In this document: in pieces, positions 188 to 38,527 of the stretch
Layout: each line of letters starts with the position of its first letter
Numbering within the stretch: position 1 is the stretch's first letter
Assembly: GCF_004345365.1 (NCBI RefSeq)
Contig: NZ_SLVF01000002.1
Span: 558,001 to 622,000, forward strand
DNA: 64,000 nucleotides
Direction: 5' to 3'
Source of the DNA: Kribbella sp. VKM Ac-2568
Lineage (GTDB): Bacteria > Actinomycetota > Actinomycetes > Propionibacteriales > Kribbellaceae
Notes under the pieces: generated by a model
Databases searched by the model: none
What the model saw: only the letters and a program-made list of their open reading frames with translations
Told to the model about the DNA's origin: nothing
Made by a program: the position numbers and the translations under genes

Positions 188-1557
188 GACGCTGCCGGGA
201 TGCCCGGCCTGGACTGGGAGCCACCCGCCGGCGTCCCGAGGTACGGGAACGACGTCAGGTAGTCGGAGTTCGTGTTCGACGTACCGTCCTTGATCGCACC
301 GGCGGCGGCGTCCGGCTTGTAGGCCTTGTCCACCAGCGGGATGGTCAGTCCGGCGATCGCGCGCAGCTCGACGGTCACGACATCGTCGAAAACCCTGCGT
401 CCGTTGGGGAATCCGGCCGCGTCGCCCGCCACCAGACCGAGCGGGTTCGGCGACTTGGCCGGCGGTACGGCGACGTTGAGCCGCAGCATGTCCGCCTGCA
501 CCGGACCGGTGAAGTTCTGGAACCCCGGTACCACGCCCTTCGGGATCCCGGTCAGCAGGATCGCCGCGAGATCGGCGCGGGGCTTCTTGTAGGCGGCGAG
601 GTTCGGGAACACGCCCGGGTACAGCACCGGGAGCAGCCCGCCGAGCTCGGGCTTCGTGACGTACTTGGCGAAACGCTTGTCCTCGGCGGGCGCCAGGCTG
701 TTCCACTTGTCCTTCTCGGCCATCGGCACGATGACCTCGTTGAACAGCGGGTTGCCCAGCCGCGAGACCTGCTTGTACGGACCGTGCCCGGCCGGCACGC
801 CACCGACGAGAATCCTGGACTGCCGGCGACTCGCGGACGCGTAGACCCCGATCACCGACTTCGGGTCGAGCACGTCCTTGGGCCTCTTGCCATCCCTGGT
901 CAGGTCCGTGATCGGGATCTGCAGCGCGATGGTGTGCACGTTCGACCCCTGCAGGCCGTTCACGCCCATCGCCGCGGCCGACGGGATCAGGTGCGCCATC
1001 TGGAACGGGCGCAGCGTGGCGAGGTCGAAGATGCTGCCCAGGTCGGCGAAGAACCCGTCCGCCCGCTGGCCCGCGAACACCTTGCGGTTGGTGCCGAAGG
1101 TGTAGATCGCCTGACGGCCGAGCCTGGCGTAGTTCGGCGTACTGCGCACGCCGACGTTGACCGGGGGCGCCCCCAGGTTGCGGGCGAGCACGCGGGCCCG
1201 GCCGTTCTCCACCCGGGTCACCGAGTAGTACTGCGGCCGGTTCCAGCTCTTGTCCTTGATCGAGGTGATCGGCCCGGTGTTGTACAGGAAGGTCTTCCTG
1301 TTCCGGATCTCGGCGTGGAAGCGGAACTGGTAGCTGATGTCCGCCCGGCCGGTACCCGAGTTGGAGATGTGGATCTGGTAGAGCACGTCGTCGCCGAACT
1401 CGTAGAAGTTCGGCCCGCCGTACGGGTTCTGGAACGGGATGAAGTTGGCGATCAGGGTCACCGTGTCCGGCTTGTCCGGGCTGACGAACGCGTAGACGTC
1501 GGTGTTGTCGGCGACCGGGTCCTTCGAGATCTCCGGTGCTTCGCGGTGCGAAGACAT
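184..1557 (-). CDS. DUF4331 family protein
   Basis: This 457-residue protein starts MSSHREAPEISKDPVADNTD, the signature N-terminus of DUF4331 (SSHREAP, then DP.ADNTDVYAFVSP). No signal peptide or membrane segment is evident at this start, although family members are often predicted extracellular. The biochemical role of the family is unknown. It lies 43 bp downstream of a small Tat-signal protein and overlaps the next gene by ATGA, giving a three-gene operon. A purine-rich ribosome site (GGAGGAATTGTC) precedes the ATG. Confidence 0.88.
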   Translation of the reverse strand: MSSHREAPEISKDPVADNTDVYAFVSPDKPDTVTLIANFIPFQNPYGGPNFYEFGDDVLYQIHISNSGTGRADISYQFRFHAEIRNRKTFLYNTGPITSIKDKSWNRPQYYSVTRVENGRARVLARNLGAPPVNVGVRSTPNYARLGRQAIYTFGTNRKVFAGQRADGFFADLGSIFDLATLRPFQMAHLIPSAAAMGVNGLQGSNVHTIALQIPITDLTRDGKRPKDVLDPKSVIGVYASASRRQSRILVGGVPAGHGPYKQVSRLGNPLFNEVIVPMAEKDKWNSLAPAEDKRFAKYVTKPELGGLLPVLYPGVFPNLAAYKKPRADLAAILLTGIPKGVVPGFQNFTGPVQADMLRLNVAVPPAKSPNPLGLVAGDAAGFPNGRRVFDDVVTVELRAIAGLTIPLVDKAYKPDAAAGAIKDGTSNTNSDYLTSFPYLGTPAGGSQSRPGIPAAS

Positions 1558-1600
1558 GACAATTCCTCCAGTGCGGGATCGAGTACGAAGTGGTTGACGG

Positions 1601-1879
1601 TCAGCCGGTCACGCCGGCGAGGCGGGCGGCGAGCTCGCGATCGGTCACCAGGACCTCGCGCTCGCCGACCATGATCGCCATCCGTCCGGCCTTGACGTCC
1701 TTGACGTGCACGACGAACGACTCCGCGTTCGTCAGGTCCGCCGCCTCCAGCTGGGTCGCCGCGTCGGCGGACCGCTCACCGAACACCTTCGGTACGGCGA
1801 ACGCGCCGGCCGCGCCGACCGCCGCGGCGGTTCCCGCGCCCGCGAACACCAGGAATCCGCGCCGTGTTGCGTCACTCAT
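1601..1879 (-). CDS. Small Tat-exported protein
   Basis: This 92-residue protein carries a clear twin-arginine signal: TRRGFLVFAG at residues 5-14, a hydrophobic Ala/Gly stretch to about residue 30, then a mature part of about 60 residues. The mature part contains ADLTNAESFVVHVKDVKAG and a hydrophobic strand AIMVGEREVLVTDREL. Related small Tat proteins are seen near DUF4331 genes in actinomycetes; the function is unknown. It is the first gene of the DUF4331 operon, with a structured leader upstream (1948-1994). Confidence 0.75.
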   Translation of the reverse strand: MSDATRRGFLVFAGAGTAAAVGAAGAFAVPKVFGERSADAATQLEAADLTNAESFVVHVKDVKAGRMAIMVGEREVLVTDRELAARLAGVTG

Positions 1880-1947
1880 GACTGTTTCCTTCCCCTGTCT
1901 TCCCCGTGGCCCCGACGCCGGCGACTGCCGCCGCGTCCACCCCGCAT

Positions 1948-1994
1948 TCGGCGCCCACCCCTGGAGTGGATGGGTGCGAATTTCTGGGCGCCGA
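1948..1994 (-). terminator. Hairpin between tetR and the Tat/DUF4331 operon
   Basis: TCGGCGCCCA (1948-1957) and TGGGCGCCGA (1985-1994) are perfect 10-base inverted arms around a 27-base loop, starting 15 bases past the TetR stop. There is no clear U tract. A competing fold pairs ATTCG and CACCC (1946-1960) with GGGTG and CGAAT (1972-1981). It could be the tetR terminator, a structured leader of the DUF4331 operon, or both. Confidence 0.5.
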
Positions 1995-2009
1995 CCGGCC
2001 GGGGGTCCG

Positions 2010-2621
2010 TCAGAGGTCGGACAGGGCGGGGATGCGGTGGCCGGGCGGGGTGAAGGCGGCCAGGACCGTGGCGGTGATGCAGTCGGCGGCCTGGTCGGTG
2101 GCCAGGCGGCCGGCGTTGATCTCGTCGGCGGCGTTGTGCATGACGCTGTGCATCGTGCCGACCAGCCAACTGGTGGGCAGATCGCTGCGGAACACGCCTT
2201 CGGCCTGACCTCGCTCGATCAGGTGCTGCACTCGCTGCATCGGCTCTTCGTGCAGCGACCGGATCCGGCCGGGCGGCAGCACGCTCTGAGCAGCCAGCAG
2301 TAGCGACCGGAACCGGTCCACCAACTGCCAGCTGGACTCGACCAGCCGAGCCAGCGCCAGCCGCGGGTCCCCGCTCAGGTCGACCGCCTCGAGAGCGTCA
2401 TGCCCGTCCTCGATCGCGTGGGCGAATGCCGCGTCGACCAGGTCGGCCCGGGACGGGAAATGGCCGTACAGCGTGACCCGTCCGACGCCCGCGGCCTTGG
2501 CGATCTCGCTGACGCTGGCGTCCGGGTTGCGGCTCAGGCTCTCGGTCGCCGCATCCAGGATCGCGGCGATGCTGCGCTGCGCGTCCGCTCGCTTGGCCGG
2601 CGCCTTCGACTGCGTCACCAC
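2010..2621 (-). CDS. TetR family transcriptional regulator
   Basis: 203 residues. The N-terminal HTH lies at roughly residues 17-62 (SIAAILDAATESL, then SVSEIAKAAGVGRVTLYGHF and PSRADLVDAAF), which is typical of TetR repressors. The C-terminal helical ligand domain is of the type found in multidrug repressors. A GAGGAG ribosome site sits 5 bases before the GTG start. It is divergent from the MFS exporter at 2717, with two inverted repeats in the shared promoter region, so it most likely represses that exporter and itself. Confidence 0.9.
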   Translation of the reverse strand: MVTQSKAPAKRADAQRSIAAILDAATESLSRNPDASVSEIAKAAGVGRVTLYGHFPSRADLVDAAFAHAIEDGHDALEAVDLSGDPRLALARLVESSWQLVDRFRSLLLAAQSVLPPGRIRSLHEEPMQRVQHLIERGQAEGVFRSDLPTSWLVGTMHSVMHNAADEINAGRLATDQAADCITATVLAAFTPPGHRIPALSDL

Positions 2622-2645
2622 GAAAACTCCTCTTGTCGAACACCA

Positions 2646-2689
2646 CTGTACGGGTTACGGTACAGGAACTAACTCGAACACTTATGTTC
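2646..2689. promoter_or_regulatory. Candidate TetR operators upstream of the MFS exporter
   Basis: Two inverted repeats lie in the divergent tetR/MFS region. CTGTAC-N8-GTACAG spans 2646-2665, with perfect 6-base arms, and GAACA-N4-TGTTC spans 2676-2689. Their position between divergent start codons and their dyad symmetry fit a TetR-type operator. The first has the usual form for TetR proteins controlling exporters. Binding is inferred. Confidence 0.55.
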
Positions 2690-2716
2690 AACTTAATCGA
2701 TTCGGGAGGGACCGGC

Positions 2717-4129
2717 ATGTCCGGAGAAACCAGCGGCGGTCACCAGACGACCGCCGCGGACCCGCGGCGGTGGCGCCTGCTCACGCTGCTCGGGGTCGCG
2801 CAATTCATGCTCATCCTCGATGTCACCGTGGTGGCCATCGCGCTGCCGCACATCGGTGAGGATCTCGGCCTGGCGCGGGACACGCTGACCTGGGTGGTGA
2901 GCGCCTACACGCTGATGTTCGGCGGCCTGATGCTGCTCGGCGGCCGGGCGGCGGACCTGTTCGGCTCCCGCCGGATCGTGCTGACCGGCCTGGTGGTCTT
3001 CGTCGCTGCCTCGCTGGTCACCGGGCTGGCCAACGGCGCCGAGATGCTGATCGGCGGGCGGATCGCCCAGGGCATCGGCGCCGCGCTCCTGTCCCCCGCC
3101 GCCCTGTCGGTGGTTACCAAGACCTTCCAGGGCGAGGAACGGAACAAGGCGCTCGGCATCTGGTCCGCCCTGGGCGGCGGCGGCGCCGCGATCGGAGTAC
3201 TGCTCGGTGGTGTCCTCACCGCCGGACCGGGCTGGCAGTGGGTCTTCTACATCAACGTGCCGATCGGCGTGGTCGTCCTGATCGCACTGAGCCGGACGCT
3301 GCCCGCCGACCAGCCGGGACCGAGCACCGCCCGCCTCGACTTCCCGGGCGCGCTCCTCGTCACCGCCGGCACCGGCACCGCGATCTACGCGCTGATCAAC
3401 GCCGGCGACCGTGGCTGGCTCAGCGTCGCCACCCTTGGCACGCTGGCCGTGGCCGCCGTTCTGTACGCCGGGTTCGTCGCGCTGCAGCGCGTCGTGGCGT
3501 CACCGCTGATGGATGTCCGGATCCTGACCAGGCGACCCGTCGCCGCGGGCACCTTCCTGATCCTGGTCGCCACCGCGCTGATGATCGCGGTCTTCTTCCT
3601 CGGCTCCTTCTACCTGCAACACCTCAAGGGGTACGGCGCGCTGCGCACCGGGCTGCTCTTCCTGCCGGTGGCGCTTGCCACGATCGTCGGAGCACAGTCG
3701 GCCGCCCAGGTCATCGGCCGCACCGGCCCCCGGCCGGTCGCACTCATCGGACTGGCGATCGCCGCGATCGGCACCGCGCTCCCCGCGTTCTGGGACAGCT
3801 CGGTCACGGTCGTGGTCGGGATCAGCGTCGCCGCCGCGGGGATCGGCGCCTCCTTCGTCGCGGCCTCCACGACCGCGTTGTCGCAGGTCGCTCATCATGA
3901 GGCCGGGCTGGCATCGGGGATCTTGAGCACCTTCCACGAGTTCGGCGCCGCGCTAGGTGTTGCCGCGGTGTCGAGCATCGCGGCCGCGAGTATCGCCGGC
4001 ACCAGCAGCACCGGATTCACCCGCGGCTTCACCTTTGCCGCGATCACCGCCGCCGCGTCCGCAGTACTGGCGCTGTTCGTCGTACCGGCGGCGAAGCCGA
4101 TGGCGAACGCCCTGCGTCACGCGCACTGA
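2717..4129 (+). CDS. MFS drug exporter (DHA2, 14-TM type)
   Basis: The start was chosen at ATG 2717 because GGGAGGG (2704-2710) lies six bases upstream; an open frame back to 2633 would cross the operator region. The product is 470 residues. It contains the DHA2 signatures AQFMLILDVTVVAIALPHIG in TM1, GGLMLLGGRAADLFGSRR between TM2 and TM3, and about 14 hydrophobic segments, as in EmrB/QacA proton-driven multidrug exporters. Divergent tetR and a GNAT gene 23 bp downstream form a typical drug-response unit. The substrate cannot be told from sequence. Confidence 0.9.
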   Translation: MSGETSGGHQTTAADPRRWRLLTLLGVAQFMLILDVTVVAIALPHIGEDLGLARDTLTWVVSAYTLMFGGLMLLGGRAADLFGSRRIVLTGLVVFVAASLVTGLANGAEMLIGGRIAQGIGAALLSPAALSVVTKTFQGEERNKALGIWSALGGGGAAIGVLLGGVLTAGPGWQWVFYINVPIGVVVLIALSRTLPADQPGPSTARLDFPGALLVTAGTGTAIYALINAGDRGWLSVATLGTLAVAAVLYAGFVALQRVVASPLMDVRILTRRPVAAGTFLILVATALMIAVFFLGSFYLQHLKGYGALRTGLLFLPVALATIVGAQSAAQVIGRTGPRPVALIGLAIAAIGTALPAFWDSSVTVVVGISVAAAGIGASFVAASTTALSQVAHHEAGLASGILSTFHEFGAALGVAAVSSIAAASIAGTSSTGFTRGFTFAAITAAASAVLALFVVPAAKPMANALRHAH

Positions 4130-32716: not shown

Positions 32717-35479
32717 TCAGCCGTCGTTCTCCGCTGACGGGATGAGGGCGCCCGGCACATTCTCCGGTGCGACGATCTTGTCCTCGCCGGGGTACGGCTT
32801 GGTCCAGTCGTGCGCCTCGTACCAGCTGAGGTGGTTCATCTGGGCGGGGTTGGCGAAGTCGGCCCTGGCGTCGGGGCCGGTGAGCCGCTGCTGCGACTTC
32901 CAGCTGTCCCACTTCGCCGCGACATCCTGCTGGTCCGCAGGCACGGTCGCCTTCGGAGCAGCCGCCGCCAGCGGGTTCTGGGCCGCCGGAACGTCAGCGC
33001 CGCAGGAAGGCAGTGCCGTCAGACCCGCGGTCAGCGAGGTTCGGTTGGGCAGTGCGGTGAACGGCCGGTAGTCGGGCGTCTTGGTGAACGCCCCGGCCAT
33101 CGGGGTGGCCGCGCTGTCCTTCTGGTTCATCGGCTTGATCCCGAGCATCTGCTCGATGGTCCGGATCATCGTGATCTGCGAGTAGTAGTGGCTGTCGACC
33201 GCGCCGCGCTGGGCCCAGGGGCTGATGATCTGGATCGGGGCCCGGTGGCCGTCGATGTGGTCCAGACCAGCCTGGGAGTCGTCCTCGACGACGAAGATCG
33301 CCGAGTCCTTCCAGTACTTGCTGTGCGAGATCGTGTCGACCATCTTGCCGACCGCGAGGTCGTTGTCGGCGACCTGGGCGGCTCCGTTCGGCGGACCACC
33401 GGTGTGGTCGCTGGAGAGCCAGAACATGTTCAGGTTCGCCGGACCGTTCTTCTGGAAGTCCTGCTTCCAGATCTCGTACCGGTAGATGTCCGGTACCGCG
33501 GTGTCGAACTTCGGGAAGCCGTGCACCGACACGTCGTTGAGCGACGGGATCGGCGATGACGAGATCAGCGGGTAGGCGGTGTTCGCGCCGGTCGCCGCCA
33601 TGTTCTTGGTGTCGCAGTACAGGTTCTGCCAGCTCGCGCCGGCCGGCTTGGTCAGGAACTGCTGGAACTCACCGAAGTCGCGCACGGTCTTCCCGGCGTC
33701 CTGCGCACCGCTCCAGATGGTGCCGGTCCGCTGGTGGCCGAGAGCGTCGTCCTCGGTGTCGTAGCTGCGCAGGTACTCACCGGCCGAGGATTCGGTGTAC
33801 TCCGGGTTGTCGGCCTGCATCAGCCAGTTGTGCCCCTCGGCCGAGTTCGTTCCGATGTCGTAGGTGTTGTCGTACAGCCCGAACTGCTTGGTCAGCGCGT
33901 GCTGGTTCGGCGTCACGTTCTCTCCGTACTGCGCCAGCGCCGGGTCGCCGTTGCCCTCGGAGATGTCGCCGAAGAGCTGGTCGTAGGTCCGGTTCTCCTT
34001 GACGATCAGGAACACGTGCTTGATCGTCGACGGGTCGCCGAGCCGCTGCGGGACCGGTACCGGCTTCTTGTTGCCCTTGTCCTTGGCAACCTCGACCGAG
34101 TTCTTGGTCCAGCCGTTCTGCTGGAAGACCTTGGCCGTGCCGGCACGGATGGCGTGGTCGTCCGGCAGCTTGAACCGCTGCAGGCTCGACGTCGTGTCGT
34201 GGGTGCCGTGCCCGGCGGCCGTCGTCGGGCGGCGGGCATCGATTCCACGAGTGTTCGACACCAGTACGTCGTCGCCGACGGTGGTGATCTCCGCGGGGAA
34301 GTAGTCCGTCGGCAGCAGGCCGACATAGCTGACCGGCTCCAGCGGGTTCTGGTAGCGGTAGACGGCGACCGCGTTCGCGCGGCCGAGCGTCACCAGCAGG
34401 TGACCGTCATCCGTCAGCGTCACCCCGTCGGGCTCGTAGCCCACCGACGCCTCCGGCCACGGGCGGGTGGCGATGGTCTGGACGACCTTGTTCTTGGCGG
34501 TGTCGATGACGGAGACGTCGTTGGTCGCCGTGTTCGTGACGAACAGCGCGCCGTTCTTCGCGTACAGAGCGGTCGGGTGCAGCCCGACGTCGATGCTCGT
34601 GACGGCGGCGGCGGAGTTCGCCAGGTCGATGACGCTGACCGTGCCGGTGGTGGTGGCACCGGTCGACGGGTTGGCCGGGACCTGGGTGTTGTACGAGTTC
34701 ATCGTGGTGTCGCCCGGCTTCGCCGGACGCCCGCCCTCGTTGCTGACATAGAGCTTGTCGCCGACCTTGATCAGGTCGCGCGGGGCGTTGCCCACGGTCC
34801 AGCTCTGCTGGATGGCGCCGGTCGCCGCGTTGATGGCGACGACGCGGTTCTGGCCGTTGACCGCGGAGTACACGGTGGAGCCGTCGGGCGAGAACACCGC
34901 CTCACCCACCAGCGCGTGCTTGGGCCCGTCCGCCGCGATCGAGACGAAGGTCGGGTTGGCGACGGTGCCGTCCGGGTTCACGGTGAACCTGCGGTAACCG
35001 TCGGTCTGGCCCAGCCACAGCTGCGAACCGTCGGGTGAGTACGTCGGGCCTTCCTGGCCGATGTCGTTGCCAGGGATGCGCAGATTCGCGGCGGCGTTGT
35101 TGCCGACCAGCTGCTGCACCTTCCAGGTCTTCAGGTCGACGATGCCCAGTGCCATCCCACCGTCGGTGACCGAGGCCGCTACGTGGGTGCCGTCCGGGCT
35201 GAGCGAGGACGACATGATCTTGCCGTTGTTGATGACGAGGCGCTGACCGATCGGGTTGACGTACTGGTCGCCGGAGACGACCAGACCCTTGTCAGTGGTC
35301 TGTCCGACCTGGTCGGTCCCGAACATGCGCGTCGAGGCGAATGCGATTCCGGAGCCGGTGGCTACCACGGCGACAGCGGTGGTACCTGCTGTGATCCGTG
35401 ATACGCGGCGTCCGATGCGTCGGCCGAGCAGGCCTGATTGGCCCTCCTCGTCACGCCGGCGGCGGCGTGTTACCTGCAT
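32717..35479 (-). CDS. Secreted bifunctional YncE beta-propeller / phosphoesterase
   Basis: 920 residues. Arginine-rich N-terminus, then a signal segment (ITAGTTAVAVVATGSGIAFA). Residues ~60-430 are a YncE-like beta-propeller (SSSLSPDGTHVAASVTDGGM, VISVNAATGA-like repeats). Residues ~470-900 are a phosphoesterase/alkaline-phosphatase-fold domain starting IKHVFLIVKENRTYDQLFGD, with FVVEDDSQAGLDHIDGHRAP holding metal ligands, as in phospholipase-C-type esterases. AAGGAG inside the last codons of the upstream permease gene is its ribosome site, with a three-base gap, so it is tied to the ABC exporter. The substrate is unknown. Confidence 0.9.
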   Translation of the reverse strand: MQVTRRRRRDEEGQSGLLGRRIGRRVSRITAGTTAVAVVATGSGIAFASTRMFGTDQVGQTTDKGLVVSGDQYVNPIGQRLVINNGKIMSSSLSPDGTHVAASVTDGGMALGIVDLKTWKVQQLVGNNAAANLRIPGNDIGQEGPTYSPDGSQLWLGQTDGYRRFTVNPDGTVANPTFVSIAADGPKHALVGEAVFSPDGSTVYSAVNGQNRVVAINAATGAIQQSWTVGNAPRDLIKVGDKLYVSNEGGRPAKPGDTTMNSYNTQVPANPSTGATTTGTVSVIDLANSAAAVTSIDVGLHPTALYAKNGALFVTNTATNDVSVIDTAKNKVVQTIATRPWPEASVGYEPDGVTLTDDGHLLVTLGRANAVAVYRYQNPLEPVSYVGLLPTDYFPAEITTVGDDVLVSNTRGIDARRPTTAAGHGTHDTTSSLQRFKLPDDHAIRAGTAKVFQQNGWTKNSVEVAKDKGNKKPVPVPQRLGDPSTIKHVFLIVKENRTYDQLFGDISEGNGDPALAQYGENVTPNQHALTKQFGLYDNTYDIGTNSAEGHNWLMQADNPEYTESSAGEYLRSYDTEDDALGHQRTGTIWSGAQDAGKTVRDFGEFQQFLTKPAGASWQNLYCDTKNMAATGANTAYPLISSSPIPSLNDVSVHGFPKFDTAVPDIYRYEIWKQDFQKNGPANLNMFWLSSDHTGGPPNGAAQVADNDLAVGKMVDTISHSKYWKDSAIFVVEDDSQAGLDHIDGHRAPIQIISPWAQRGAVDSHYYSQITMIRTIEQMLGIKPMNQKDSAATPMAGAFTKTPDYRPFTALPNRTSLTAGLTALPSCGADVPAAQNPLAAAAPKATVPADQQDVAAKWDSWKSQQRLTGPDARADFANPAQMNHLSWYEAHDWTKPYPGEDKIVAPENVPGALIPSAENDG

Positions 35480-35482
35480 GGA

Positions 35483-36841
35483 TTACTCCTTCGGAGTGGC
35501 GGAGAGCAGTTCGAGCTTGGCGTCGAACTGCCAAAGCGGGTTCGGTGCGTCGCCTTGCGGCGTGCGCACCAGGAAGAAGCCGTTCACTTCCTTCGGTCCG
35601 TCGCCGTCGGCGACGTACCGCCCGTCAGGGGTGACGTCGAGCTGGTAGACGGCCGTCCCCGCGGCCTCGACGTCAGGGAGATGCCAGGTCACGACGCAGC
35701 GCCAGTCGTTACCTGCGCCCTGGGCGGCGACCTGGTCGCCGCCCTTCGTGCACGCCGCCGTGGCCTTCAACTGCGCCTCGGTGACGTCGGGCCGGTTGAG
35801 CTGCTTGGTCTGCAGGCGGTAGAGGTGGGCGAAGGCCGTGGCGACCGACTGCTGCACCTTCTCCTGCTCGATCCCGGAGCCGGTGGCCCCGGTCGCCGGG
35901 GTGACGACACCGATGGAGACGCCGAGCAGTACGACCAGCGGCAGGAGACCGCCAGTGAGCGCACGCCGGCCCGCGCCGTCATCAGTCAGGTTGGTGAAGT
36001 CGCGCCGCACGAACAACCGGTAGGCCAAGGCTGTCGCGGCCACGGCCCAGACCAGGCTCACCCCGATACCGATCAGGAGCGGGCCGAGCTGCGCCGGGCT
36101 GGTGAACAAACCGCTCCACGCGGTGAAGGCGTAGCCGGGCAGAGCGAGGCGTACGGCGACCGGTATCGGCAGCATCTGGGCGAGCTGCATCGTGAGCGCG
36201 ACGATCGCGGGCAGCAGGAGTCCCATCGGTGACCGCCCCAGCGCGACGGACCCGAGCAGTCCGATGGCGGCGAGGGCCAGAGTCGGGGCGAGGACGCAGA
36301 CCCAGGCGAGCAGGACCTTGCCCGCGGCGTCCGCCGGTGTCAGCAGGTGGCCGTCGAGGCCGATCAGCGGATGGTTGCCGATCGCAATGAGCCCACCGAC
36401 CGTGCTGGAGATCGCCAGTCCGGCCACGAGCAGCACGATGACGGTGAGGCTGGCCAGTGCCTTCGCCGCGAAGATCCGGCGGGGCGACCGGACCGCCACC
36501 AGCAGGTGGCGCCAGGTGCCGAGCCGATCCTCGGAGGCGAACGCGTCACCGGCGACCAACGAGGTCAGCAGTGGAAGCGCCCAGGTGCCCGAGAACCCGA
36601 GCACCACCACCGGTCCGGCCCAGGCCGTGGCGTGCATCCAGCGACCGAAGAGGGTGTCGACGGGGAGCGAGCCCTGTTGACTCACCGCGGCGACGAACAG
36701 CGCCGGCGCGATCCAGCAGACGAGAACCAGCAAGCGGACCCGCCACTGCGAGATCATCTTGACCAGCTCGAAGCGGTACCCGCGCGCGACCGACACCCGG
36801 CCGGCAGTGGGAACGTCAGTAACGGCGACGGTCGCGGTCAT
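35483..36841 (-). CDS. ABC-2-type transporter permease with extracytoplasmic domain
   Basis: 452 residues. About six membrane helices (RLLVLVCWIAPALFVAAVSQ, WAGPVVVLGFSGTWALPLLT, ALASLTVIVLLVAGLAISS and others) are followed by a final helix LLPLVVLLGVSIGVVTPATG. A ~150-residue soluble C-terminal domain (VATAFAHLYRLQTKQLNRPD, DVEAAGTAVYQLDVTPDGRY) should lie outside the cell. The ATG overlaps the ATPase stop (ATGA), and the secreted phosphoesterase follows three bases later. The extra domain with two Cys (AACTKGGDQ, WRCVVTW) may form a disulphide. Confidence 0.82.
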   Translation of the reverse strand: MTATVAVTDVPTAGRVSVARGYRFELVKMISQWRVRLLVLVCWIAPALFVAAVSQQGSLPVDTLFGRWMHATAWAGPVVVLGFSGTWALPLLTSLVAGDAFASEDRLGTWRHLLVAVRSPRRIFAAKALASLTVIVLLVAGLAISSTVGGLIAIGNHPLIGLDGHLLTPADAAGKVLLAWVCVLAPTLALAAIGLLGSVALGRSPMGLLLPAIVALTMQLAQMLPIPVAVRLALPGYAFTAWSGLFTSPAQLGPLLIGIGVSLVWAVAATALAYRLFVRRDFTNLTDDGAGRRALTGGLLPLVVLLGVSIGVVTPATGATGSGIEQEKVQQSVATAFAHLYRLQTKQLNRPDVTEAQLKATAACTKGGDQVAAQGAGNDWRCVVTWHLPDVEAAGTAVYQLDVTPDGRYVADGDGPKEVNGFFLVRTPQGDAPNPLWQFDAKLELLSATPKE

Positions 36842-37818
36842 CGGTTCGACTCCTGCTGCTCGGTGAGGGCGAGGAACGCGGCTTCGAGCGGCGACACCAC
36901 GGGTGCGAGCTCGCGCACCGCGATGCCCGCCTGCACCAGCCGCACCACCAATTCGTCGAGGGCCGGCACCATCGCGTGCACCACGAACACCGCGGCGTTC
37001 TGACCGATGTCGTCGGCGACGCGTACTCCGGCCGTTTCGCCCGCCACCCGGCGGGCGGCCTCTGGGTCGGAGGTGAGGAGCCGGTAGCCGAGCTCATCGG
37101 TCTCGGCGGCCAACTTGCTCAGCGGGCCGGAGAAGACGACCCGCCCGGTGGCGAGGATGGTGACCTCGGAGCACAGCGCCTCGAGGTCGTCCATCCGGTG
37201 GCTGGAGAGCACCACGGAGGTTCCGTCGGCCGCGAGCCGGGTGAGGACGCCGTGGACGTGCTTCTTGCCGGCCGGATCGAGCCCGTTGGACGGTTCGTCG
37301 AGCACCAGCAACCGGGGCTTGGTGAGTAGGGCCGCGGCGAGCCCGAGGCGTTGGCGCATGCCGAGGGAGAAGCCGCGGACCCGATCGTCGGCGACATCGG
37401 TGAGCCCGACCTCACCGAGCACATCGTCGATCCCCGCCGTCCGCGCTTCGCGACCACGCAACGCCGCCAGCGCGGCGAGGTTCTGCCTGGCCGTGAGCGA
37501 GGGGTACAGGCCGGGACCGTCGACGAAACCCGTCACACCGTCGGGAGCGGCGAGCGCGCGCCCGACCGGCGTACCCAGGATCTCGAGGGTGCCACTGTCG
37601 GCGACAGCCAGACCCAGCAGCAGCCCGAGCAGGGTCGTCTTTCCTGCGCCGTTCGGTCCGACCAACCCGTGGATCTGCCCTTGCGGCACGTCCAGTTCGA
37701 TGCCGTCGAGCGCGATCACCTCGCCGAAGGACTTGACGACTCCACGAGCCCTGACGGCGACGGATTCGTCCATCCGACCGAGGCCTGCGACCGAGGTCGC
37801 GGGCAGACTTTTCTTCAT
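36838..37818 (-). CDS. ABC transporter ATP-binding protein
   Basis: 326 residues from ATG 37818 (GGAG eight bases upstream). It has Walker A GLVGPNGAGKTTLLGLLLGL, signature VRGFSLGMRQRLGLAAALL, Walker B LLVLDEPSNGLDPAGK and the switch His in VLSSHRMDDLEALC, plus a ~90-residue C-terminal domain typical of ABC-2 exporters. It pairs with the overlapping permease gene. It could export a lipid, peptide or drug, or help the membrane handling of the adjacent phosphoesterase; sequence alone does not decide. Confidence 0.92.
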   Translation of the reverse strand: MKKSLPATSVAGLGRMDESVAVRARGVVKSFGEVIALDGIELDVPQGQIHGLVGPNGAGKTTLLGLLLGLAVADSGTLEILGTPVGRALAAPDGVTGFVDGPGLYPSLTARQNLAALAALRGREARTAGIDDVLGEVGLTDVADDRVRGFSLGMRQRLGLAAALLTKPRLLVLDEPSNGLDPAGKKHVHGVLTRLAADGTSVVLSSHRMDDLEALCSEVTILATGRVVFSGPLSKLAAETDELGYRLLTSDPEAARRVAGETAGVRVADDIGQNAAVFVVHAMVPALDELVVRLVQAGIAVRELAPVVSPLEAAFLALTEQQESNR

Positions 37819-37966
37819 CAAGCGCACTCCGAAGGGGCGGAACAATGTGGCGGGCTGCCTGGCAACGTTGTCACCAACTTCCCGCCGGGTCAGTACCCAG
37901 CGGGTGACCCGAAGGTGAACACTTGTTAACCCCGCTGGCGCACAGCGAGGTCACCCACCCAGGACG

Positions 37967-38527
37967 TCAGGCAGTGAGTTCGGAGAGGTCTGCGAGGGTG
38001 CCTCGCATGACGTCGGCCAGGTCCGCGTCTTCCGGTCCGGTGACCCAGCGCTCGAATGCCACTCGGAAGACCGCGATGCCGGTCTCTGCCGCGAGCGACG
38101 CGGTGTCCGGCTCGACACCTCGCTGCCGCAAAGCCTCGGTGAACGCCGTGACGAGCGATGCCATCTTGATGAACTCGCGCTCGCGGAGTTCGGGCGTCGC
38201 CGCGATGACGGCCTGCCGACGCCGGGAGTGGTCCCGGCGGTCGGCGAACAACTCGGCCGCCGCGAGCAGCGCGATCGTGATGGCATCCATCGGTTCCGCG
38301 TCCCGAGGCGCGCCGGTCAGGGCGTCGACCATGCGCCGCTGGAGTTCCTCGGAGCCGGCGAAGAGCACCTCGCGCTTGTCCACGAAGTGGCGGAAGAACG
38401 TCCGCGCGGTCACGCCGGCCCGGTCCGCGATGTCGGCGACGGTCGTGCCGTCGAAGCCCTGCTCGGCGTACAGCGCCATCGCCGCTTCACGCAGCCGGCC
38501 GGCCGCATCCGGTTCCCAACGCCCCAT
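37967..38527 (-). CDS. TetR family transcriptional regulator
   Basis: 186 residues. HTH at about residues 10-60 (LREAAMALYAEQGFDGTTVA, DIADRAGVTARTFFRHFVDK). The FFRHF variant is typical of actinobacterial TetR proteins. It is divergent from the SDR gene at 38618. Two nearly identical perfect palindromes (GATGTCA-N5-TGACATC) lie between them, giving a strong case for autoregulation and control of the SDR gene. Confidence 0.92.
   Translation of the reverse strand: MGRWEPDAAGRLREAAMALYAEQGFDGTTVADIADRAGVTARTFFRHFVDKREVLFAGSEELQRRMVDALTGAPRDAEPMDAITIALLAAAELFADRRDHSRRRQAVIAATPELREREFIKMASLVTAFTEALRQRGVEPDTASLAAETGIAVFRVAFERWVTGPEDADLADVMRGTLADLSELTA

Follow-up and report, generated by a model that had tools for sequence, protein, structure and literature searches.

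The phosphatases and phospholipases PhoA, PhoC, PhoD and PhoX of the Streptomyces Pho regulon are extracellular phosphoester hydrolases encoded behind PHO-box-like operators. The family PF04185 includes AcpA-type acid phosphatase and non-specific phospholipase C. Other described systems are built around ATP-binding cassette (ABC) transporters of the ABC-2 type: bcrABC and bcrABD join one to a phosphatase-type partner, LanFEG/LanI joins one to a lipoprotein, and NosDFY(L) combines ABC components with an outer partner and a lipoprotein. We describe here a three-gene cassette, encoding an ABC ATPase, an ABC-2-type permease and a large phosphoesterase, from Kribbella sp. VKM Ac-2568 (assembly GCF_004345365.1, contig NZ_SLVF01000002.1, positions 558,001 to 622,000). 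This stretch of 64,000 nucleotides is called the window below.

Like the Streptomyces Pho enzymes, the cassette phosphoesterase is predicted to work outside the cell and lies behind a PHO-box-like operator; unlike PhoX and PhoD it belongs to another catalytic family, carries an added propeller and has a dedicated ABC transporter in its operon. A family match and metal-site residues connect it to the PF04185 enzymes, but it is fused to a YncE-like propeller and scores far below the cut-offs of TIGR03396 (phosphocholine-specific phospholipase C; 34.2 vs 580 bits) and TIGR03397 (acid phosphatase; 36.2 vs 363 bits). Some relatives of the cassette ABC genes adjoin BacA, an undecaprenyl-pyrophosphate phosphatase, which recalls bcrABC and bcrABD; the cassette phosphoesterase, however, is neither BacA nor PAP2, and the cassette has an outer lipoprotein domain and a PHO box. 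NosDFY(L) has in common with it the permease fold and the combination of ABC transporter, outer partner and lipoprotein, whereas the cassette lacks a NosD (no NosD-type match in its three proteins) and a copper enzyme, and its lipoprotein domain is fused to the permease. Compared to LanFEG/LanI, likewise an ABC-2 transporter with a lipoprotein, the cassette has a single permease and a phosphoesterase, and its proteins score under the family cut-offs.

The three genes lie on the minus strand in the order ATPase, permease, phosphoesterase (Table 1). A first-pass annotation, made from the letters alone, had reported an ATGA overlap between the first two genes and a phosphoesterase start three bases past the permease stop, served by a ribosome site inside the permease gene; the coordinates confirm both. 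The permease gene ends in AAG GAG TAA, with the stop codon at 35483-35485, and after 3 nucleotides the phosphoesterase ATG follows at 35479-35477.

Table 1. Features of the cassette and its upstream region, in window coordinates.
Feature	Position	Strand	Remarks
ABC ATPase, 326 residues	36838..37818	(-)	Drug/lantibiotic/NodI-type (DrrA-like), ABC-2 permease partner; PF00005 8e-29
ABC-2-type permease, 452 residues	35483..36841	(-)	Six-helix core, extra helix and predicted extracellular domain
Phosphoesterase, 920 residues	32717..35479	(-)	Basic/hydrophobic N-terminus, YncE/YVTN propeller about 75-440, PF04185 about 480-800, C-terminal region
ATGA overlap, ATPase stop and permease start	36838..36841	(-)	
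Phosphoesterase ribosome binding site AAGGAG	35486..35491	(-)	Last two permease codons
Seventh membrane helix of permease, residues 291-317	35891..35971	(-)	From structure model
Predicted extracellular C-terminal domain of permease, residues 318-452	35486..35890	(-)	Cys364 and Cys382 invariant; homologous to stand-alone lipoproteins
PHO-box-like 11-nucleotide direct repeats GTTCACCTTCG GGTCACCCGCT, weaker third unit GGGTACTGACC	37888..37920	(-)	Upstream of ATPase

The same arrangement recurs in relatives. We compared 80 named loci, the best 80 of 379 relatives and hence biased toward close ones. The permease gene adjoins the phosphoesterase gene in every one of them (80/80), with 2-7 nucleotides between stop and start in 74. 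The ATPase stop and permease start overlap by 4 nucleotides in 63 of 78 loci and by 1 nucleotide in 5. In 76 loci the gap before the phosphoesterase is 13 nucleotides or less, and in 74 of these the permease codons contain the ribosome site. Because spacing, overlap and placement of the ribosome site recur across these loci, the layout is not due to chance. Two loci (L032, L110) have lost the ATPase to a contig end, and in two (L047, L080) the permease or ATPase is apparently interrupted by an early stop.

A second sample, which may share genomes with the first, consisted of 394 genomes of the class, in 32 of which the phosphoesterase is matched with an E value of 1e-30 or lower. Where the match is full-length and at least 49% identical, the permease stands beside the enzyme (14/14 genomes). 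In the other 18 genomes, whose phosphoesterases are distant or half-length, no permease was found within the fetched flanks; one of these (G363) has a 50% match that spans the catalytic half only. The first-pass annotation had named orthologous phosphoesterases never linked to the ABC genes as the case that would speak against it; the survey found the orthologues linked in all 14 genomes and all 80 loci, a result that stands for enzymes of at least 49% identity and is limited to this clade, given the 18 genomes with distant homologues. Of 38 congeners in the genus Kribbella, 24 have both enzyme and permease and the other 14 have neither. Across 76 loci the pairwise distances of each of the three proteins correlate with those of the others (r 0.65-0.84), for which shared ancestry alone could suffice. 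The three genes remain linked as their surroundings change: no further neighbor family exceeds 15 of 79 loci, and those that recur encode general transporters, a reductase and two-component proteins. Conserved neighbors, considered as a clue to substrate, were rejected in these 79 loci because none is conserved. The cassette is, with near certainty, an obligate three-gene unit. A literature search on the gene pair returned no title or abstract opening that describes it.

Further copies of the phosphoesterase gene vary in context. Divergent second copies adjoin an ABC pair in convergent orientation in G046 and G093, and one in G299 stands without it. A broken-looking second copy in two pieces (64% and 75%; G395:C1:2729488-2732661) has no permease alongside, and in L112, a distant relative that lacks the ABC permease, two phosphoesterase stretches lie in tandem at 3-206 and 1294-4035. 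Large Streptomyces plasmids carry the gene as well: 6 of 18 matched plasmid records have a full-length phosphoesterase at 74-75%, and two loci with the gene (L180, L181) are giant linear plasmids of 1.0-2.4 megabases whose gene tables are nearly empty.

The region upstream of the ATPase gene connects the cassette to phosphate. PMC4415409 describes the PHO box as two 11-nucleotide repeats, with GTTCACC as the core in S. coelicolor. The two stronger units in the window span 37899-37920. A scan of the 8.9-megabase genome with GTTCACCN4GTTCACC returned 121 sites at two mismatches or fewer, against 29 for the reversed pattern. At one mismatch or fewer 13 sites remain; one is that of the cassette, others precede phoX, phoU and pstS, and most of the rest fall in open frames or precede unrelated genes. 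With phoX, phoU and pstS of this genome behind the same pattern, membership of the cassette in the PhoP regulon is very probable. AfsR and GlnR, which also read similar repeats, are candidate alternative readers.

Across loci, the strict core GTTC-N7-GTT[AC] occurs within 250 nucleotides upstream in 48 of 77, while other 250-mers from these loci predict about 0.2, and replacing N7 by gaps of 2-6 or 8-15 yields only 0-5 loci. The window site, whose second unit reads GGTC, falls outside this strict count and inside a relaxed one (52/77, 1.6 expected). With a slightly longer upstream stretch the strict core is found in 49 of 76 loci and 9 of 16 genera. This core was picked after inspection of earlier upstream-motif output; the scan of the organism's own genome with the published core is the cleaner support. 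A search of whole upstream regions with the full 11-nucleotide PhoP consensus was set aside, as a spacing of 11 was not separated from spacings of 9-13. The strict pattern precedes none of 16 related ABC-type operons that lack a window-type operon and none of 17 distant phosphoesterase genes, the starts of which are uncertain. A SigE-type promoter pattern was found upstream in 0 of 77 loci. A near-palindrome, AACA-AG-TGTT, overlaps the start of the PHO-box-like repeat, and a TetR/MftR-like gene lies further upstream in the same direction as the cassette (37967-38527); this gene is not conserved beside other cassette copies, with matches in only two other loci (L050, L068).

The structure model of the permease (mean predicted local distance difference test score 81) has an ABC-2 core, then helix 291-317 and then a domain of helix plus sheet, for which no Pfam match was found. 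Both Cys364 and Cys382 are kept in 90 of 90 aligned permeases, from a set of 94 loci that includes the window itself and from which the alignment omits four (L015, L032, L047, L110). A disulfide between them is plausible, since both are invariant and sit on consecutive strands of the model. In other operons the permease ends near residue 284, with the outer domain encoded by a separate gene that follows it. Of 17 such loci examined, most have a lipobox-like LAGC, LVGC, LGGC or VAGC in the separate gene; L173 and L175 have no clear lipobox, and in L165 the traced frame is that of the permease. In G022 a separate lipoprotein gene stands between a short permease gene and the phosphoesterase gene. 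As related operons encode the outer domain in a lipoprotein gene of its own, the window permease is most readily understood as a permease fused to a surface lipoprotein. That the domain is extracellular is well supported by the model and by homology, since helix 291-317 follows a six-helix core and the homologs are stand-alone lipoproteins. The extracellular domain with two cysteines that the first-pass annotation had described is thus upheld.

Family models place the transporter broadly. The ATPase resembles DrrA, NodI and lantibiotic-protection ATPases but lies under every curated NCBIfam cut-off shown; its Walker A, signature and Walker B motifs are conserved across the aligned homologs, an alignment that omits 2 of 78 (L047, L080). 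The permease scores 16.2 bits against TIGR03733 (cut-off 117.2) and 23.7 bits against the Pfam ABC2_membrane model PF12730 (gathering cut-off 27). A profile search of the permease against solved structures gave nothing useful, and a PHROGs search gave no match.

The phosphoesterase scores 41.6 bits against PF04185, above the gathering cut-off of 23. Residues E495, N496, H550, D733, D734, H741 and H745 are invariant in 32 of 32 aligned enzymes; of these, E495/N496 and D733/D734/H741 have aligned counterparts in acid phosphatase 2d1g, and we take the conserved residues to be metal ligands. The propeller scores 41.9 bits against the YVTN repeat model TIGR02276, above its cut-off of 27.85, and 21.4 bits against the YncE equivalog NF052280, far below its cut-off of 400. 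By structure it matches YncE 3vgz (Z 29.8, root-mean-square deviation 2.9, 295 residues), although many propellers score about 29. Propeller matches fill the structure-search lists for the enzyme, among which the PF04185 fold does not appear. The N-terminus is basic, with one weakly hydrophobic segment at residues 29-47. This agrees with the earlier description of the enzyme as secreted; that part of the description is less certain, and cleaved and anchored forms are both compatible with it.

Relatives of the ABC genes occur apart from the phosphoesterase. Among the 35 genomes of one family in the class, 13 have the short permease with the lipoprotein domain adjoining and with no adjacent phosphoesterase. 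BlaI-like genes are found upstream at 12 of the 13 loci, in most cases with a gene of M56/M48-like type on the far side, and BacA is adjacent in 6: just past the lipoprotein gene in five (L163, L166, L170, L171, L172) and between BlaI and the ABC genes in L169. This suggests that the core of ABC transporter and lipoprotein belongs to envelope-phosphate biology and has been joined to different phosphatases, a suggestion weakened by degraded BacA copies. In Amycolatopsis acididurans a BacA gene stands directly upstream of the cassette in the same direction (L048, 4574-5572), the sole case in 79 loci. A Pfam scan of the three cassette proteins found no BacA or PAP2, and the genome's single BacA gene lies on a different contig.

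The reading we favor, tentatively, is that of a phosphate-starvation cassette under PhoP control, in which the phosphoesterase at the surface would receive from the ABC complex a phosphoester that is either lipid-linked or exported. Low phosphate would induce one mRNA for all three genes, and translational coupling would yield the ABC complex together with a surface enzyme composed of propeller and metal-dependent PF04185 domain. The complex would bring a lipid that bears phosphate, or a lipid-linked product, to the outer face, where the lipoprotein-like domain may receive it and pass it to the phosphoesterase; cleavage would either recover phosphate or recycle the carrier. A lipid phosphate is the preferred substrate, as a possibility rather than an expectation, because the same ABC-lipoprotein core pairs with BacA in some relatives. 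A more specific version is rather speculative: in starvation the transporter, driven by ATP, might extract phospholipid or undecaprenyl-linked phosphate from the membrane and pass it via its lipoprotein-like domain to the surface phosphoesterase, which might free the phosphate as a nutrient; this would make the machine a branch of the Pho regulon present as one coupled block in at least 16 genera. In phosphate-limited S. lividans the phospholipid content is much lower (PMC7937720), and a putative phospholipase C has been discussed there (PMC7244524); no mention of the cassette was seen in either paper.

Linkage and regulation are well supported; several points weigh against this reading. We infer the substrate and the direction of transport, and the activity of the enzyme is predicted from its sequence, with low model confidence in the active-site region and loops. 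The distant phosphoesterases of the 18 genomes above do without ABC genes, and of the 6 BacA copies only 2 (L166, L171) look intact, the others being fragmentary. PhoP control is not universal, because the pattern is found in none of ten Microbispora, Microtetraspora, Nonomuraea and Planotetraspora loci although they keep the cassette; regulation may differ in these ten (L049, L058, L063, L066, L082, L099, L101, L102, L106, L109). The first-pass annotation had gone further and assigned transporter and enzyme the same phosphorylated substrate. Its observation holds more strongly than it was put: the unit is real, conserved and co-inherited, and the link to phosphate is backed by the PHO-box-like operator, but the shared substrate is unsupported: possible and unproven, it does not follow from the overlap, which implies coupled expression and not a common substrate.

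Among alternatives, an unlikely one is a maturation or anchoring machine of NosDFY type, in which ATP would drive metal loading or assembly of the propeller enzyme via the outer domain with no metabolite exported. NosDFY itself serves assembly and is not a simple exporter. NosY is the closest solved fold for the permease (Z 20.1, root-mean-square deviation 2.9, 233-235 residues), so that export, the direction given in the first-pass annotation, is a presumption; for the ATPase, NosF ranks with the best matches outside ABCA. The partner, a surface metalloenzyme with a propeller, and the coupled dosage of transporter and enzyme would both suit assembly. The common ABC-2 fold, however, shows no function, and ABCG entries score only about 2 Z units or less from NosY (ABCG2, Z 18.5, itself an ABC-2 fold match). 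The permease rows of this search span residues 11-284, which do not include the outer domain. Distant homologs of the enzyme also manage without such an ABC transporter, and the ABC-lipoprotein core occurs without the enzyme.

Somewhat less likely again is an exporter for envelope stress or antibiotic protection, similar to BcrAB or LanFEGI, in which the ABC transporter and its lipoprotein domain would remove a cell-wall-active compound, with the phosphoesterase acting as an undecaprenyl-pyrophosphate phosphatase or inactivating that compound. The best NCBIfam match of the ATPase is a lantibiotic-protection subunit, TIGR03740, though at 169.6 bits it is below the cut-off of 309.75; relatives carry BlaI, M56/M48 peptidase and BacA, with BacA just upstream of the cassette itself in L048; and bcrABD operons, according to PMC3435297, combine an ABC transporter with a lipid-carrier enzyme. 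Against this, the cassette has a PHO-box-like operator where the 16 lipoprotein-type operons lack the strict pattern, and it encodes no BacA or PAP2. Identification of the ATPase as BcrA was rejected as unspecific, since the match of about 31% to an annotated BcrA is equaled by other ABC-2 ATPases. The original proposal that a phosphorylated product, such as an inactive metabolite or wall precursor, is secreted and then dephosphorylated outside fits the tight coupling and the conserved phosphoesterase active site but is improbable, as no biosynthetic genes travel along and no neighbor family exceeds the 15 of 79 loci noted above.

Hydrolases of the Pho regulon are familiar as stand-alone secreted enzymes; in this clade one is always accompanied by an ABC transporter of its own. 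Through the PHO-box-like operator the phosphate idea can be tested directly, and the outer domain offers a handle on the substrate. Kept together in 16 genera while its surroundings change, the cassette may represent an unstudied step in phosphate recovery or lipid-carrier recycling in soil actinobacteria.

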